DNA of 34,545 bases from Microbacterium sp. (GTDB lineage: Bacteria; Actinomycetota; Actinomycetes; Actinomycetales; Microbacteriaceae). Under the pieces are notes generated by a model that had not been told where the DNA came from, did no database searches, and was given only the letters and a program-made list of their open reading frames with translations. The stretch spans positions 68,168 through 102,712 of the forward strand of contig NZ_WOYQ01000006.1 of assembly GCF_011620665.1 (NCBI RefSeq), in the 5' to 3' direction. Positions 3,483 to 8,833 of this stretch are shown here, one piece after another; position 1 is the stretch's first letter, and the number at the start of each line of letters is the position of its first letter. Made by a program: the position numbers and the translations under genes.

Positions 3483-4871
3483 TCAGCGTGGTGCGCCCGG
3501 CAGTGTGAGGGATGCGTCGAGCCCGCCGCCCGTGCGGGGTTCGAGCCGAGCGGATCCGCCACTGGCCCGGGCGAGGCGCTCGACGATCGCGAGGCCGAGG
3601 CCGCTGCCCTCGCCGTCGGAGGAGCCCCGCCAGAATCGGTCGAACGCTCGCGCGCGCTGCGCGGGCGAGAGCCCGGGTCCCTCGTCGAGGACGTGGACGG
3701 TCACGCGGTCCGTCGACTCGACCCGCACGGTGATCGTCGAGCCGGCGGAACTCGCACCGAGGGCGTTGTCGATGAAGTTGTCGACCACCTGTTCCAGCGC
3801 TGTCTCGATCGCCACCGCGGGAGCGACGGTCGCCCCCTCGTAGCGGATGGTGATCCCCGCCTCCTGGCCCAGCGGCATCCATTGCTCGACCCGCTCGCGG
3901 GCGATCGCGGCAACGTCGTACACGGCAGTGGTGGCCGATTCAGCCTCCGCACGGCTCAAGGTGAGCAGCCCTTCGATGAGGGAGCCGAGGCGATCCAGTT
4001 CGGCGTCGGCGGCGGCGAGTCGTTCGGCGGCGGCGTCCGGATCCGATTCGATCAGCTCCGACGCACCCTCGAGCCGCAACCGCAGCGCCGTGAGCGGGGT
4101 GCGCAACTGGTGCGAAGCGTCGGAGGCGAAGGATCGCTGCAGCTCGATCAGGGCCTGCAGCCGTTCCGCCATCAGATTGAAGGAACGGGCGAGCGATCGT
4201 ACCTCCGGCACGCCGGCGCCCTCCTCGGCGCGCGACTCGAGATCGCCCCTCGCGAGACCGTCGGTGGCCGCCTGGAGCAGCCTCAGCCGACGGGTCACCC
4301 CCGATGCGAAGACGAACGCGACGAGTCCCGCGAGCACGACTGTGGTCGCGGCGACCGGCAGGAGGCCCCAGACCTGTCGCATCGCGGCATCCGTCACGAC
4401 TTGCGCCGGGTAGCTGAGCCGCACCGAGCCCAGGACTCCCTCGGCGCTCAGCACCGGCACCGCCACGTAGAGAAGTCGCACGCCGAGGGTCTCGGAGTCT
4501 CGCTCTCCGGTCGCGATGCGTCCCTCGAGCGCTGCCGCGAACTCAGGCCGGCTCGCGTAGGAGGCCCCCACACGGGATTGGTCGGCGTCGCTCGTCGCGA
4601 CGGCGACCCCCTCGGCGTCGACCACGACGACGCGGGCGCCGCTTGAGGCGCTGTACTCGGCGACCACGCGGGCCGCCGCCGGATCGGTCGCTGCGGTGCC
4701 CGCCTCGAGCAGGTCCTCCAGCCGGCCGGCGAGCACGAACGCGTCGCGTTCGAGCGTGGTGACCATGCGCTCGCGTTCGACTCCCGTGAGGTAGAACGCG
4801 AAGGGCACGTTCTGCACGGCCAGCATCAGCAGCGTGAAGCCGGTCATGGCGAGGATGAGCCGGAGCCTCAT
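3483..4871 (-). CDS. Sensor histidine kinase with extracytoplasmic PDC/Cache-like domain
   Basis: Membrane kinase that autophosphorylates on His and passes the phosphate to the regulator encoded just upstream. The 462-residue protein has a first membrane segment (about 5-28). An external sensor of about 135 residues follows, with the PDC-like pattern VVVVDAEGVAVATSD and LLYVAVPVLSAEGVLGSVRL. The second membrane segment is about 169-190 and a HAMP region spans about 192-245. The H-box is SDASHQLRTPLTAL with His254. The N-box is VVDNFIDNA (Asn369), the G1 box is DEGPG (396-400) and the G2 box is GSGLGL (422-427), so all kinase motifs are intact. It starts 25 bp after the regulator stop, giving the order regulator-kinase. 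The ligand is unknown. The divergent neighbour is the redox/flavin unit, so a redox or metal cue is a reasonable guess. Confidence 0.92.
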   Translation of the reverse strand: MRLRLILAMTGFTLLMLAVQNVPFAFYLTGVERERMVTTLERDAFVLAGRLEDLLEAGTAATDPAAARVVAEYSASSGARVVVVDAEGVAVATSDADQSRVGASYASRPEFAAALEGRIATGERDSETLGVRLLYVAVPVLSAEGVLGSVRLSYPAQVVTDAAMRQVWGLLPVAATTVVLAGLVAFVFASGVTRRLRLLQAATDGLARGDLESRAEEGAGVPEVRSLARSFNLMAERLQALIELQRSFASDASHQLRTPLTALRLRLEGASELIESDPDAAAERLAAADAELDRLGSLIEGLLTLSRAEAESATTAVYDVAAIARERVEQWMPLGQEAGITIRYEGATVAPAVAIETALEQVVDNFIDNALGASSAGSTITVRVESTDRVTVHVLDEGPGLSPAQRARAFDRFWRGSSDGEGSGLGLAIVERLARASGGSARLEPRTGGGLDASLTLPGAPR

Positions 4872-4896
4872 ACTCGTGCGCCGCCGCTGGGCGCCG

Positions 4897-5574
4897 TCAC
4901 AGCAGCGCCTCGAACCGGAAGCCGATCCCGCGCACCGCCTCGATCCAGGCGGGGTCTCCGAGCTTCTTGCGGATCGCGGCCACGTGCGCGTCGAGAGTCT
5001 TCGTCGTGCCGTACCAGCTCGTGCCCCACACGTCCCTCAGGATGTCGCCGCGACGCATGACCGCACCGGGGTCGCTGGTCAGGTACTCGAGCAGTTCGAA
5101 CTCCTTCGCCGTCATGTGGACGGCGTTCCCTCGGAGGCTCACCCTGCGGCTGCGCGGGTCGAGGATGAGTGCGCCGAGCGTGCGGGCAGATGACGCGTCG
5201 TCACCCGCCGCCTCCTGGGTGACGCGGCGCATGACGGCGCGAATCCGTGCGGCCAGCTCTCGGAATCCGAACGGCTTCACGAGATAGTCGTCGGCCCCCA
5301 TCTCGAGGGCGAGCACCCGGTCGAGCTCGTCGTCGCGCGCGCTGACCACGATGACGGGAAGTGTCGAGGTCGCTCGGATGCGGCGGCAGACTTCGACCCC
5401 GTCGATGTCGGGCAGGCCGAGGTCGAGGAGCACGACCTCGGTGGTCCCGGCCTCCACCGCGGCAAGACCTTCCGCACCCGTTGCCGCGTGCGCTGCGTCG
5501 AATCCCGACCGGCGCAGGGCATCGAGGATCCCCGCCGCGATCGCGGAGTCGTCTTCGATCAGCAGGACCCTCAT
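4897..5574 (-). CDS. OmpR/PhoB-type DNA-binding response regulator
   Basis: Receives phosphate from the kinase encoded downstream and binds DNA through a winged helix. From the ATG at 5574 the protein is 225 residues. The receiver domain has the acidic pair Asp8/Asp9, phospho-acceptor Asp51 (VVLLDLGLPDIDG) and Lys100 (YLVKPFGFRE). The C-terminal winged-helix domain contains HMTAKEFELLEYL and ends with TLDAHVAAIRKKLGD and VRGIGFRFE, typical of the family. The frame is open a further 29 codons upstream, but that stretch lacks receiver homology and overlaps the intergenic promoter. A GAGAAT box 6 nt before the ATG resembles the leaderless -10 boxes elsewhere here. The gene is divergent from the flavin/redox unit, its most obvious candidate target besides itself. 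Confidence 0.93.
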   Translation of the reverse strand: MRVLLIEDDSAIAAGILDALRRSGFDAAHAATGAEGLAAVEAGTTEVVLLDLGLPDIDGVEVCRRIRATSTLPVIVVSARDDELDRVLALEMGADDYLVKPFGFRELAARIRAVMRRVTQEAAGDDASSARTLGALILDPRSRRVSLRGNAVHMTAKEFELLEYLTSDPGAVMRRGDILRDVWGTSWYGTTKTLDAHVAAIRKKLGDPAWIEAVRGIGFRFEALL

Positions 5575-5685
5575 GGCCCCATTCTCGGTGCACGACGACG
5601 TGCGCACGGGTGAGTCACGGAAATTGGATGAATCTTGGACGTCTCGGGGGCGGTCGCTCACCGTCCAGTCCGTAGCGTCGTCGTC
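5575..5685. promoter_or_regulatory. Divergent promoter region between the regulator and the flavin/redox operon
   Basis: These 111 bp separate the minus-strand regulator start (5574) from the plus-strand ATG at 5686. TAGCGT at 5673-5678 ends 7 nt before the plus-strand ATG. A GAGAAT-like box precedes the minus-strand ATG by 6 nt. Both fit leaderless transcripts. The compact divergent layout suggests shared control by the regulator. I did not find a clear direct-repeat operator by eye. Confidence 0.5.
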
Positions 5686-6051
5686 ATGAAGACCACAATC
5701 GTCACCACCCTCTCCGTGCTGGGCGTCGTCGCTGCCGCGTCGGCGGCGATGGCCGTGAACGCCCAGACGCTCGGGTTGCTCGAGTCCCAGGATGGCGTGT
5801 CCTCAAGCGTGATCGGCCCGAGCGGCGACTCACCGCTTGGACCGGTACCCGGCGCGATCGCACCCGCGGCATCGACAGTGCCTTCGACGTCGACCGTACC
5901 CAGGCCCACACCCGCGCTCGCACCGGCACCGGCACCGGCACCGAGAGTCGACGGCACGACCGGCGGATCATCGTCTTCCGAGGGCGATGACGAGGAGTAC
6001 GACGACGAGAGCGAATCCGATGACGACCGGTATGAAGACGATGACGACTGA
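5686..6051 (+). CDS. Small secreted protein with Pro/Ala linker, ApbE-like flavinylation motif and acidic tail
   Basis: I do not recognise this as a named family. The 121-residue protein starts with a signal-peptide-like segment (MKTTIVTTLS then Ala/Val-rich to about residue 25). It continues as a Pro/Ser/Thr/Ala-rich stretch without predicted fold and an (Ala-Pro) run at about 78-86. The motif VDGTTGGS follows at 88-95, then a tail made almost entirely of Asp, Glu and Ser. Asp89-x-x-Thr92-Gly93-Gly94-Ser95 resembles the Dxx(S/T)GA(T/S) acceptor site of ApbE with Gly in place of Ala. The ApbE gene is two genes downstream. I infer an extracytosolic flavin-carrying or metal-binding peptide; covalent FMN is untested. 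The ATG at 5686 was chosen over one 51 nt upstream because it starts the signal peptide and follows TAGCGT by 7 nt. The next gene overlaps its end. Confidence 0.72.
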   Translation: MKTTIVTTLSVLGVVAAASAAMAVNAQTLGLLESQDGVSSSVIGPSGDSPLGPVPGAIAPAASTVPSTSTVPRPTPALAPAPAPAPRVDGTTGGSSSSEGDDEEYDDESESDDDRYEDDDD

Positions 6052-6358
6052 TCGCCGGCACCCGGCGCGAATCGCGCGAGCCGCGGTCGGCGCAGCGACG
6101 GGGCTCGCATTCACCGGCATGCTCACCGGATTCCTGCTGTTCCCGCAGGATGACCTGCCCGCGCCCGCCGAGGTGCCGTCGGGTGCAGGTGTCACACCCG
6201 CGCCCGCCTCAGCGCCCGACCCAGCCCCCGTGGCCGTCCCCGCTCCGGCGCCTGCCCCGGCGCCCGCGCCGGCACCTGCCCCCGCTCCGGCACCTGCCCC
6301 CGCTCCTGCACCAGCCCCCGCGCCGGTCGACGCCACGACCGGTGGCTCCGGAGGCTGA
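6032..6358 (+). CDS. Membrane-anchored Ala-Pro-repeat protein ending in an ApbE-like flavinylation motif
   Basis: No recognised family. From ATG 6032 the protein is 108 residues; ATGs at 6020 and 6041 are alternatives. A basic N-terminus (DRRHPARIARA) is followed by one hydrophobic segment (about 18-37), which by the positive-inside rule places the C-terminus outside. The rest is a long (Ala-Pro)n arm. The protein ends in VDATTGGSGG, with Asp100-x-x-Thr103-Gly104-Gly105-Ser106 fitting Dxx(S/T)Gx(S/T). The DNA for this octapeptide matches that in the preceding gene at 20 of 24 positions (5947-5970 versus 6326-6349), which suggests a shared module. The start overlaps the preceding stop, and the apbE GTG begins 1 nt after its stop, so translation is coupled. 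I infer a tethered flavin arm that can swing between the reductase and an outside acceptor. A purely structural role is the alternative. Confidence 0.7.
   Translation: MKTMTTDRRHPARIARAAVGAATGLAFTGMLTGFLLFPQDDLPAPAEVPSGAGVTPAPASAPDPAPVAVPAPAPAPAPAPAPAPAPAPAPAPAPAPAPVDATTGGSGG
6253..6324 (+). repeat. 18-bp tandem repeat coding for Ala-Pro
   Basis: Two adjacent perfect copies of an 18-bp unit (ggcacctgcccccgctcc at 6271-6288 and 6289-6306) are flanked by degenerate copies on both sides. The unit encodes three Ala-Pro pairs, so gain or loss of copies keeps the frame and changes only the arm length. Confidence 0.75.
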
Positions 6359-6359
6359 C

Positions 6360-7322
6360 GTGATCTCGCACATCGCTCGGGATGCCGTGCTGGCCGCCGC
6401 CGCGAGCGGCGATCTCCCCGTGACAGCGACCCTCCGCGCACGCCGCATGGGCAACCTGTTCGCGATGACGGTGGTCGGTGCCGACGACCGCTCCGCCCGG
6501 GCGGGGCTCGCCCTTGCTGCGCACCTCGAAGCGCGCTGGAGCCGATTCCTCACCGACAGCGACATCACGTCGCTGAACCTCGCAGAGGGCGCGGTGCGGC
6601 AGGTGCACCCGCACACCGTCCGCCTGGTCCGCGAGATGCTCGACGCCCACCGGCGCACCGACGGCGACTTCGACCCGACGCTGCTTCCGGCTCTCGTCGC
6701 CGCCGGGTACGGGACCTCGCGCGTGGACCCGGGGAGAAGCACGCTGCTGCCTGCCTCGGCGGTCGCGCCCGGTCGCGTCGACTCGATATCGATCGACGGC
6801 GATCACGTCTCACTCGGACGCGGCACAACGCTCGACCCCGGCGGCATAGGCAAAGGCCTCGCCGCCGACCTCGCGGTCGAACAGGCCATCGCCGACGGAG
6901 CCCTCGGAGCGATGGCCCAGTTCGGCGGCGACGTGGTGGTCGGCGGGCATGCGCCCGACGGTGTCGCGTGGCGCATCGGCGTGGAGGACCCCTTCCAGCC
7001 GGGCCGGCACCTCGCGGTGATTCGTCTCGCCAGGGGCGCCGTCGCCACGTCGAGCCGGCGAAAGCTCCGCTGGACCGCTCCGGACGGCACACAGGCGCAC
7101 CACCTGCTCGACCCGCGCAGCATCCGGAGCATCGAGACCGATGTGCAGGCCGTCACCGTCATCGCGCCGACCGGTGCGCGGGCGGAATCCCTGACGAAAC
7201 CGGGCTTCCTCCGCCCGCTCGACGCGTTCCTCGCCTGGCTCCCGACCCAGGGTGCCGCGGGACTCGCGGTGACCGCGGACGGCGGTGAGCACGTCTCGCC
7301 GAACTGGAGCCGCTACCGATGA
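6360..7322 (+). CDS. apbE: FAD:protein FMN transferase (ApbE family)
   Basis: ApbE splits FAD and attaches FMN through a phosphoester to Thr/Ser of target proteins. The 320-residue product from GTG 6360 shows the family motifs: LDPGGIGKG (158-166), GGDVVVGG (189-196), VATSS (about 228-232) and HHLLDPRS (247-254). A C-terminal AVTVIAPTGARAESLTK segment corresponds to the Mg-binding AD...T region. In that segment Glu275 replaces the usual Asp, and Lys279 stands where Thr is usual. No signal peptide or lipobox is seen at this start, so the enzyme looks cytoplasmic although its likely substrates are exported. The GTG is 1 nt after the preceding stop, and the stop overlaps the reductase ATG (ATGA). 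The frame is open further upstream, but only as a mirror of the Ala-Pro coding region. Confidence 0.9.
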   Translation: MISHIARDAVLAAAASGDLPVTATLRARRMGNLFAMTVVGADDRSARAGLALAAHLEARWSRFLTDSDITSLNLAEGAVRQVHPHTVRLVREMLDAHRRTDGDFDPTLLPALVAAGYGTSRVDPGRSTLLPASAVAPGRVDSISIDGDHVSLGRGTTLDPGGIGKGLAADLAVEQAIADGALGAMAQFGGDVVVGGHAPDGVAWRIGVEDPFQPGRHLAVIRLARGAVATSSRRKLRWTAPDGTQAHHLLDPRSIRSIETDVQAVTVIAPTGARAESLTKPGFLRPLDAFLAWLPTQGAAGLAVTADGGEHVSPNWSRYR

Positions 7323-8833
7323 ACGATCCGCAGTTCTGGTGGTACGTCTCCCGTGCGAGCGCGATCATTGCCTGGACCCTCCTCACCGCCACCGCGCTCT
7401 GGGGCGTGCTCCTGTCGACACGCGTGCTGCGTACAGCCGACAACCCGGCCTGGCTCAAGGACCTGCACCGCTATCTGAGCGGCACGGCGATCGCGATGAC
7501 CCTGGTGCACGTCGGCTCTCTGCTCCTTGACCCCTACCTCCGCGACCAGGCGGGTTTCGGCGTCGCCGCGACCCTCGTGCCGTTCGCATCGGAGTTCAAG
7601 CCTGTGCCCGTCGCGCTCGGCATCGTCGCGCTCTACCTCATGGTCGGCGTCGCGCTCTCCGCACTCGCGGCCCGCTGGCTCCCGCACCGGGTGTGGAAGG
7701 GCGTGCACTACCTCAGCTACGCGGTGGTCGCGCTCATCACCTTTCACGCGGCGCTCGCCGGAACCGACCCGGGCACCTCGTGGTACACCGTGCTGTCGAC
7801 CGCGCTCATCGTCGTCACTGCGCTTGCGGTGGTGGTGCGCCTGCTCGTCGGAACGGTCGCCGCGCAGCGCCGACGCTCGGCCCGCTCGCCACGCGTCGCC
7901 CGCGGGAACGAGCGGCTGCGCATGGTCGTCGCGCGCAGGGTGCCGCTGGCCGACGGTGTCCTCGGCCTTCGCCTGGTGCCGGAAGGCGGAGGCACATTGC
8001 CGGTGTGGACGCCAGGATCCCACGTCGTGCTGCACGTGCCGGGCGGGCTCGAGCGGCACTACTCCCTCTGCGGCGACCCGGCCGACCGGTGGGGTTTCGA
8101 CATCGCCGTCCGGCTCGCGGAGCAGTCGCGGGGCGGGAGCCGCTTCATCCATGAGCACCTGCGCGTCGGCGACCCGCTCGAGGTGACGACGCCGCGCAAC
8201 CGATTCGGCCTGGAGCCGGCGAATGACTACCTCTTCATCGCGGGGGGGATCGGCATCACACCTCTGATCTCGATGATCACGTCACTTCCGGCATCACGTC
8301 ACTGGTCGCTCGTCTACATCGGCCGCACCCGTCGCAGCATGCCGTTCGCCGACGAGCTGATCACCCGATATCCGGGCCGGGTGACGGTGCACGCGTCCGA
8401 TGAGCAGCGCGGGCGGTATCCCGCCGCCGCGGCGGCGTCGGCCAGTTCCGCTGAAGTGTACTGCTGCGGCCCGGCCGCGCTCATGGACGAACTCGCCGCA
8501 GTCGTTCCGGCGGGGCGGCTCCATCTGGAACGGTTCGTCGCGGCCGATCGCACCGCCGGAGTCGTGGCGCGTCCGATCGAGGTGGACATGCCGGGCATCG
8601 GTTCGCTCCGCGTGCCCGCGGATCGCAGCATCCTCGATGTGCTGGAGGACGCCGGCGCACCCGTGACCGGATCCTGCCGATCCGGAGTATGCGGAACGTG
8701 CGAACTCCGGGTGACCGGGGGTACTCCGCTGCACCTGGATTCGGTGGCGGACGACGCCGAGAAGGATGCCGCCGGCGTCATGTATCCGTGCGTCTCGCGC
8801 GCACTGAGCCCGCAGCTCTCGCTGGACCTCTAG
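7319..8833 (+). CDS. Ferric-reductase-like membrane domain fused to FAD/NAD(P) reductase and 2Fe-2S ferredoxin
   Basis: A 504-residue predicted NAD(P)H-driven transmembrane electron-transfer protein. About residues 1-180 form a multi-helix membrane domain with candidate haem ligands His50, His64, His123, His130 and His143. A ferredoxin-reductase-type flavin domain follows (RHYSL, 246-250), then a nucleotide-binding domain (AGGIGITP, 308-315). A C-terminal plant-type 2Fe-2S domain has Cys453, Cys458, Cys461 and Cys491. The soluble half resembles phthalate dioxygenase reductase-type modules. It overlaps the apbE stop by 4 bp (ATGA). I infer that it takes electrons from cytosolic NAD(P)H, moves them across the membrane through haem, and passes them to flavin groups that ApbE installs on the two upstream proteins. 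Direct ferric iron or oxygen reduction is an alternative role. Confidence 0.88.
   Translation: MNDPQFWWYVSRASAIIAWTLLTATALWGVLLSTRVLRTADNPAWLKDLHRYLSGTAIAMTLVHVGSLLLDPYLRDQAGFGVAATLVPFASEFKPVPVALGIVALYLMVGVALSALAARWLPHRVWKGVHYLSYAVVALITFHAALAGTDPGTSWYTVLSTALIVVTALAVVVRLLVGTVAAQRRRSARSPRVARGNERLRMVVARRVPLADGVLGLRLVPEGGGTLPVWTPGSHVVLHVPGGLERHYSLCGDPADRWGFDIAVRLAEQSRGGSRFIHEHLRVGDPLEVTTPRNRFGLEPANDYLFIAGGIGITPLISMITSLPASRHWSLVYIGRTRRSMPFADELITRYPGRVTVHASDEQRGRYPAAAAASASSAEVYCCGPAALMDELAAVVPAGRLHLERFVAADRTAGVVARPIEVDMPGIGSLRVPADRSILDVLEDAGAPVTGSCRSGVCGTCELRVTGGTPLHLDSVADDAEKDAAGVMYPCVSRALSPQLSLDL

Follow-up and report, generated by a model that had tools for sequence, protein, structure and literature searches.

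The 34,545-nucleotide stretch of Microbacterium sp. DNA analysed here (the window; contig NZ_WOYQ01000006.1, positions 68,168 to 102,712) contains a compact operon of two short open reading frames (ORFs), here called P1 and P2, followed by genes for an ApbE-family protein and a membrane reductase (Table 1). P1 and P2 overlap by 11 nucleotides, a single nucleotide separates P2 from the ApbE gene, and the ApbE and reductase genes overlap by 4 nucleotides. These values confirm the arrangement given in a preliminary description of the locus, in which two short exported proteins were packed into one operon with ApbE and a reductase. Both small proteins have hydrophobic N-terminal segments and carry the sequence VD(G/A)TTGGS, which that description had proposed as an acceptor of flavin mononucleotide (FMN); its residue numbers hold for P1 and, in P2, for the 108-residue form. 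P2 has a basic N-terminus, a single hydrophobic segment, and a long Pro/Ala arm, with the motif two residues short of the C-terminus. Neither promoters nor terminators came out of a scan for them.

Table 1. Positions in the window of the operon, its candidate acceptor sites, and the divergent regulatory genes.
Feature	Position	Strand	Description
Sensor histidine kinase	3483..4871	-	Paired with the response regulator
Response regulator	4897..5574	-	Oriented divergently from the operon; frame open as far as GTG 5661, with ATG 5574 the likelier start
P1	5686..6051	+	121 residues: hydrophobic N-terminal signal/anchor, Pro/Ala linker, acceptor-like motif, Asp/Glu-rich tail
P1 motif VDGTTGGS	5947..5970	+	Residues 88-95
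P2	6041..6358	+	105 residues (108 if started at the upstream ATG 6032)
P2 motif VDATTGGS	6326..6349	+	Residues 99-106 in the 108-residue form
Candidate FMN-bearing Ser of P2	6347-6349 (codon)	+	Last Ser of the motif
ApbE-family protein	6360..7322	+	PF02424, E 7.5e-46
Membrane reductase	7319..8833	+	Ferric-reductase-like haem, flavin/NAD(P)H (nicotinamide adenine dinucleotide (phosphate)), and C-terminal 2Fe-2S domains

In profile searches, the ApbE-family protein scored 157.2 bits against PF02424 (cut-off 25.6), and GGAGG lies ahead of its GTG start at 6360. P1 had no match in Pfam and only matches far under the cut-off in NCBIfam, while the best Pfam match of P2 (E 0.26) was under the cut-off and its NCBIfam matches were far under theirs. 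Neither protein matched the FMN_bind profile (PF04205). Moreover, DGTTGGS in P1 and DATTGGS in P2 both depart from the known acceptor pattern, D-x-x-[S/T]-G-A-[S/T], in having Gly for Ala.

To quantify conservation of the motif, we searched 398 genomes of the family, of which 116 had an ApbE at E 1e-12 or better. We fetched 60 regions: every one of the 40 additional places that reached E 4.5e-50 (L069-L108) and 20 of the weaker ones (L109-L128). The former, together with the window and a locus in a genome of the same genus (G003), form a close set of 42 loci; L097 has no upstream sequence, leaving 41 for the motif count. We scored [S/T][GSTNA][G/A]S at most nine residues from the C-terminus of the upstream ORF adjoining apbE, a pattern composed once the first matches had been inspected, and shuffled the last 40 residues as a control. 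Of the 41 close loci, 35 had the motif, where shuffling predicts 0.9; of the 20 weaker loci (31-37% identity), 19 had it, where shuffling predicts 3.84. Background ORFs had the same C-terminal motif in 43 of 4129 cases. Lack of the motif in orthologous loci would have counted against the proposal of the preliminary description; instead, the motif is conserved in them. In G003, the same operon includes an ApbE with 64% identity and small proteins that carry PVHATTGGSGS and end PVNATTSGSGG. The close loci failing the pattern were L093, L094, L096, L098, L102, and L104, although the tail of L098, DATSQGS, fits once position 2 of the pattern is left free.

The composition of the 35 matching P2 tails clarified which residues are kept. 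Position 1 was occupied by N (19), H (6), D (5), S (3), Q (1), or K (1), position 2 by G (26) or A (9), and position 3 by T (25), S (6), or others (4). Positions 4 (T 27, S 8), 6 (G 33, A 2), and 7 (S 35) were constrained by the selecting pattern, as was position 5 in part (G 17, A 10, S 8). The leading Asp, considered part of the acceptor motif in the preliminary description, is present in only 5 of 35 tails, and the proposed pattern D-x-x-T-G-x-S gives way to one nearer [S/T]-x-[G/A]-S. Textbook endings do occur among the orthologues, namely DASTGAS in P1 of L105, which has the full known pattern, and KASTGAS in P2 of L103.

Across the close loci, the motif is not universal in P1. We picked P1 by its acidic tail, which singled out one ORF in 34 close loci; no such choice could be made in L093, L094, L096, L102, L103, and L104, and the comparison left out L075 and L097. 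The strict motif was found in 28 of these 34 proteins, with looser forms in L084, L098, and perhaps L080. Readable P1 starts in the close loci open with a hydrophobic stretch. Separately, we observed that P1 of L092, whose ORF ends 361 nucleotides before apbE, contains several HGTSGGS-like repeats in a Ser/Gly-rich chain, resembling multiple acceptor sites. Two or three such repeats are present in P1 of L095, L099, L100, L105, and L106.

We asked how the tail relates to the type of ApbE beside it. The proposed catalytic triad of ApbE is Ser-His-Asp, with the Asp corresponding to Asp301 of FmnB (PMC12052999). We aligned 130 ApbEs, dropping the duplicate L130 (equal to L017), and classified them by the residues at the triad Asp and a nearby Thr; in L075, L097, and L158 the sequence before apbE was too short for these counts. 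Beside Glu/Lys ApbEs, the class of the window, the C-terminal motif was present in 43 of 50 loci (2.8 expected). Beside the more distant Asn/Thr class it was present within five residues of the end in 38 of 44 (8.5 expected), and 37 of these 44 ORFs terminate exactly on the motif Ser (1.5 expected). Asp/Thr ApbEs had the motif beside them in 1 of 23 loci (1.1 expected), and rarer types in 1 of 4 (Glu/Thr), 1 of 1 (Gly/Thr), 0 of 2 (Asp/Lys), and 0 of 2 (Asn/Ala and Asn/Ser).

At 20 of the 23 Asp/Thr loci, an FMN_bind-like protein occupies a place at or near that of the short-tail gene. Nine were of SGAT type and 11 of AGSSLTSGGF type, with some of the latter calls resting on the last 18 residues only, judged by eye. 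The regular-expression match of L028 to FMN_bind was spurious, and this locus was counted by its tail; neither type was seen in L018, L126, or L142. FMN_bind-like lipoproteins with AGSSLTSGGF instead of SGATYTS stand beside Asp-type apbE in L013, L014, L016, L019, L021, L024, and L038, and a protein of this type in G003 (C20) was not reported by the PF04205 search.

Folded proteins elsewhere in the same genomes might be the targets of a close ApbE. PF04205 matched in 26 of the 42 genomes with a close ApbE and in none of the other 16. Absence of a PF04205 match could not be equated with absence of an FMN_bind protein, as an alignment-based search found the AGSSLTSGGF type in 4 of the 16. Neither type was matched in the remaining 12. 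In eight of the 42 genomes (G262, G212, G069, G419, G287, G328, G269, and G350), the close ApbE is the sole ApbE match and no FMN_bind protein of either type was found, yet the short tail is kept in all eight (L075, L087, L089, L095, L100, L101, L107, and L108). Among the 16 genomes without PF04205, DUF2271 matched in 0 of 16 and NqrB/RnfD in 0 of 16 (no search was made for DUF3570 or fumarate reductase). In the window's genome, PF04205 matched once and the AGSSLTSGGF type not at all. The PF04205 match is on another contig (L036; G000:C35, about 4325-7861), where the FMN_bind gene is lined up with another apbE, of Asp type, and with genes for a reductase and a transporter, presumably of VIT1 type.

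The membrane reductase follows apbE directly in 38 of 42 close loci, with L069 cut, and was not found in L094, L102, or L104. These last three loci keep a P1-like protein and ApbE, have no P2, and have other genes downstream, including a transporter-like protein. The window's reductase matched Fer2 and, more weakly, ferric-reductase and NAD-binding families, with Ferric_reduct falling slightly short of its cut-off (27.2 versus 28 bits). The haem-ligand residues H50, H64, H130, and H143 and the 2Fe-2S residues Cys 453, 458, 461, and 491 are invariant in 35 of 35 aligned proteins. In the Protein Data Bank, the soluble half matched P450-reductase fusions (6kbh, 2.7e-51) and phthalate dioxygenase reductase (2pia, 6.8e-49), and judged by these matches it belongs with the latter. 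Phthalate dioxygenase reductase is an FMN enzyme rather than one that uses flavin adenine dinucleotide (FAD). The soluble half therefore points to FMN where the preliminary description named FAD. The response regulator is present in 40 of 42 close loci, the contig ending before it in L075 and L097, and the sensor kinase in 38 of 42, the stretch or contig ending before it in L006, L075, L087, and L097. In three loci read in the distant class, the short protein and apbE are followed by genes for a membrane protein with haem (about 185 residues in L110 and L113) and a NuoF-like protein, with a ferredoxin-like ORF in two.

We also considered how far the system extends beyond the family. At the order level, 24 of 396 genomes matched ApbE at 1e-18, and this search found no close-type ApbE outside the family (best 2.8e-28). 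At the phylum level, 16 of 296 genomes matched a distant-class ApbE at 1e-30. Tails in these order and phylum searches include PVTTGGS, ATSGGS, and VPSSGS, as well as the non-matching ends SGNVRCY, THHS, and KTSSS. A separate related-locus search with ApbE as query gave a single, distant locus. A plasmid search gave 65 records, among which 15 were listed and six examined (H1, H2, H3, H4, H9, and H14). On a mine-sediment plasmid of Mycolicibacterium aubagnense, the kinase and regulator genes are accompanied by two small proteins, annotated as hypothetical, by an ApbE with 52% identity, and by the reductase; P2 ends SKASGG. The other five plasmid loci end TRSGGS, TRGS (Deinococcus), TTRAS, ARSAGS, and HTAAS, and plasmids of Arthrobacter, Rhodococcus, and Gordonia are annotated in the distant-class gene order from apbE on. 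In the records examined, the small proteins are annotated as hypothetical or are missing from the incomplete gene table. Nearby, two small membrane proteins follow the operon in the Mycolicibacterium plasmid (L167, 7504-8095), and two exported proteins very rich in Met, Gly, and Asp lie upstream of the operon in a Streptomyces plasmid (L168, 2356-3641).

Because the tail is conserved, FMN_bind-like proteins occupy its gene position in most Asp/Thr loci, and eight genomes have no folded substrate that we could detect, we think that P2, and P1 in most loci, is a natural flavin tag. It is likely that the neighboring ApbE flavinylates P1 and P2 and that the tags take electrons from the membrane reductase. 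The suggestion in the preliminary description that a folded carrier has been replaced by a motif on a disordered arm gains partial support by comparison of gene position, ApbE, haem reductase, and conservation, the arm being of low complexity. Under our reading, ApbE would move FMN from FAD onto the last Ser of [S/T]-x-[G/A]-S, which is Ser95 in P1. Since ApbE has no signal peptide, flavin would be added in the cytoplasm before export, as an unfolded tail would permit. The N-terminal segment of P2 would anchor it in the membrane and leave the Pro/Ala arm outside, and one small protein may be secreted while the other is tethered. NAD(P)H would feed the reductase through its flavin and 2Fe-2S domains, and the outer haem would reduce FMN at the tip of P2. 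This FMN could then pass electrons outward, directly or via P1, whose acidic tail may face a metal ion or other acceptor. The divergently transcribed two-component pair probably controls the operon.

Several observations weigh against P1 and P2 being flavin tags. Assuming a numbering offset of 20, the window's ApbE has Glu276 at the proposed catalytic Asp, and it has Lys280 where solved ApbEs have Thr, although the triad His is kept. For this reason we name it an ApbE-family protein, and its transferase activity is presumptive. Distant-class ApbEs likewise have Asn in place of the catalytic Asp. The enzyme has no signal-like leader, though the proteins proposed as its substrates have the look of exported ones; a leader is also absent from the canonical ApbE in the window's genome, and cytosolic ApbEs are known (PMC12052999). 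The tails rarely have Asp at position 1 and have Gly at position 5 in 17 of 35, while the known motif has both. The P1 motif was not seen in L070, L071, L081, or the Mycolicibacterium plasmid copy (L167), and among Glu/Lys loci 7 of 50 lack the pattern, as do 6 of 44 in the Asn/Thr class. PF04205 misses some folded proteins, as G245, G366, G131, and G087 have the AGSSLTSGGF type beside a second apbE. A further four genomes among the 12 without either type (G307, G095, G240, and G393) have a second ApbE of the FMN_bind-associated kind, matching the profile in the partial or split way of the canonical ApbE, and the searches may have overlooked a folded partner in these four. Four of the eight genomes with a sole ApbE are 77-88% complete and the other four 90-94%. 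Finally, the acceptor state needs only two changes on a quick ApbE tree, and the link between ApbE type and neighbor may therefore reflect descent rather than many independent events.

We weighed these points against explanations other than flavin tagging. The replacement of Asp by Glu or Asn, and of Thr by Lys, in the ApbE classes that accompany short tails might mark a changed activity, with the enzyme putting something other than FMN on the motif Ser (e.g., adenosine monophosphate or another nucleotide) or binding the tail non-catalytically. We regard this as unlikely, given that the GGxxKG, GD, and HH residues are largely kept in the window's ApbE class and that the transmembrane haem reductase so often adjoining it points to redox use. 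Alternatively, the tail, on its arm rich in Thr and Pro, could be a signal for docking or glycosylation, tied to ApbE by mere operon membership. O-mannosylation is common in actinobacteria, the linkers are rich in Ser and Thr, and the tails do not conserve the Asp and Gly of the canonical motif. However, the motif lies near the C-terminus across two ApbE classes and the six plasmid loci examined, one of them in Deinococcus, and FMN_bind-like proteins take the same gene position in other loci, making such a signal quite unlikely.

It is very unlikely that ApbE acts in trans on ordinary FMN_bind proteins while P1 and P2 are unrelated envelope proteins. Although the window's genome does have one FMN_bind protein, and PF04205 or the second type is found in 26 and four more of the 42 genomes, respectively, the protein in the window's genome adjoins its own apbE. 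The eight genomes with only a close ApbE and no FMN_bind match of either type likewise weaken the case, raised in the preliminary description, for a normal FMN_bind protein encoded elsewhere being the sole target. That the matches arose by chance in proteins of low complexity is highly improbable: tails rich in Ser, Gly, Ala, and Thr lift the chance rate (to 8.5 of 44 in the Asn/Thr class) and the pattern was chosen after a first look, but shuffling controls disfavor chance in both classes, with exact C-terminal placement in 37 of 44 Asn/Thr loci versus 1.5 expected and the C-terminal motif in 43 of 50 Glu/Lys loci versus 2.8.

If P1 and P2 are natural flavin tags, covalent flavin may work as an extracytosolic electron carrier without a protein pocket. 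An ApbE subclass with altered active-site residues would then have its own acceptor rule, useful for protein labelling. More tentatively, there may be a class of natural flavin tags in Actinobacteria and at least one Deinococcus plasmid, each an anchored disordered arm ending [S/T]-x-[G/A]-S that would be flavinylated in the cytoplasm by divergent Glu/Lys or Asn ApbEs, exported, and reduced by transmembrane haem reductases. Some arms might be multi-site, forming a disordered flavin wire, with the repeats in P1 of L092 as an example.

The P1/P2 system is real, conserved, and, as far as our searches reach, undescribed; we found no description of short tail acceptors of this kind in the open-licence PubMed Central literature. 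According to a 2021 survey (eLife, PMC8238504), 4% of genomes (670) had apbE but no known substrate, with less prevalent substrates still unidentified, and the tails are direct candidates for such substrates. In that survey, a cluster was retained only where ApbE, FMN_bind, DUF3570, or DUF2271 bore a signal peptide or a lipidation site, so a cluster of the window's type would probably be left out.

Short peptides at a protein end suffice as acceptors in ApbE flavin-tagging, in which known ApbEs accept seven-residue synthetic tags (PMC12052999). Those tags are engineered and follow D-x-x-[S/T]-G-A-[S/T], whereas P1 and P2 are natural and looser, nearer [S/T]-x-[G/A]-S. In FMN_red and Flavodoxin_4 substrates, the motif can also sit on an unstructured C-terminal extension (mSystems 2024, PMC11334425). 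There, the extension belongs to a folded flavin-binding domain, unlike P1 and P2, which match no Pfam domain. The canonical locus of the window's own genome (L036) resembles the operon in lining up apbE with an acceptor anchored in the membrane and a protein like ferric reductases, but its acceptor is an FMN_bind domain with QMVSGATYTS and its ApbE has Asp/Thr, in contrast to short tails and Glu/Lys. The operon also resembles MsrQ-like flavinylation systems, which PMC8238504 describes as broad in Actinobacteria and as combining ApbE with a transmembrane haem protein of PF01794 type and, in many cases, an NAD-binding domain. Such clusters typically, though not strictly, hold a gene for an FMN-binding domain, whereas the window's operon has only short tail proteins. 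Overall, the system looks like MsrQ-like flavinylation in which the folded acceptor has been replaced by a tail.

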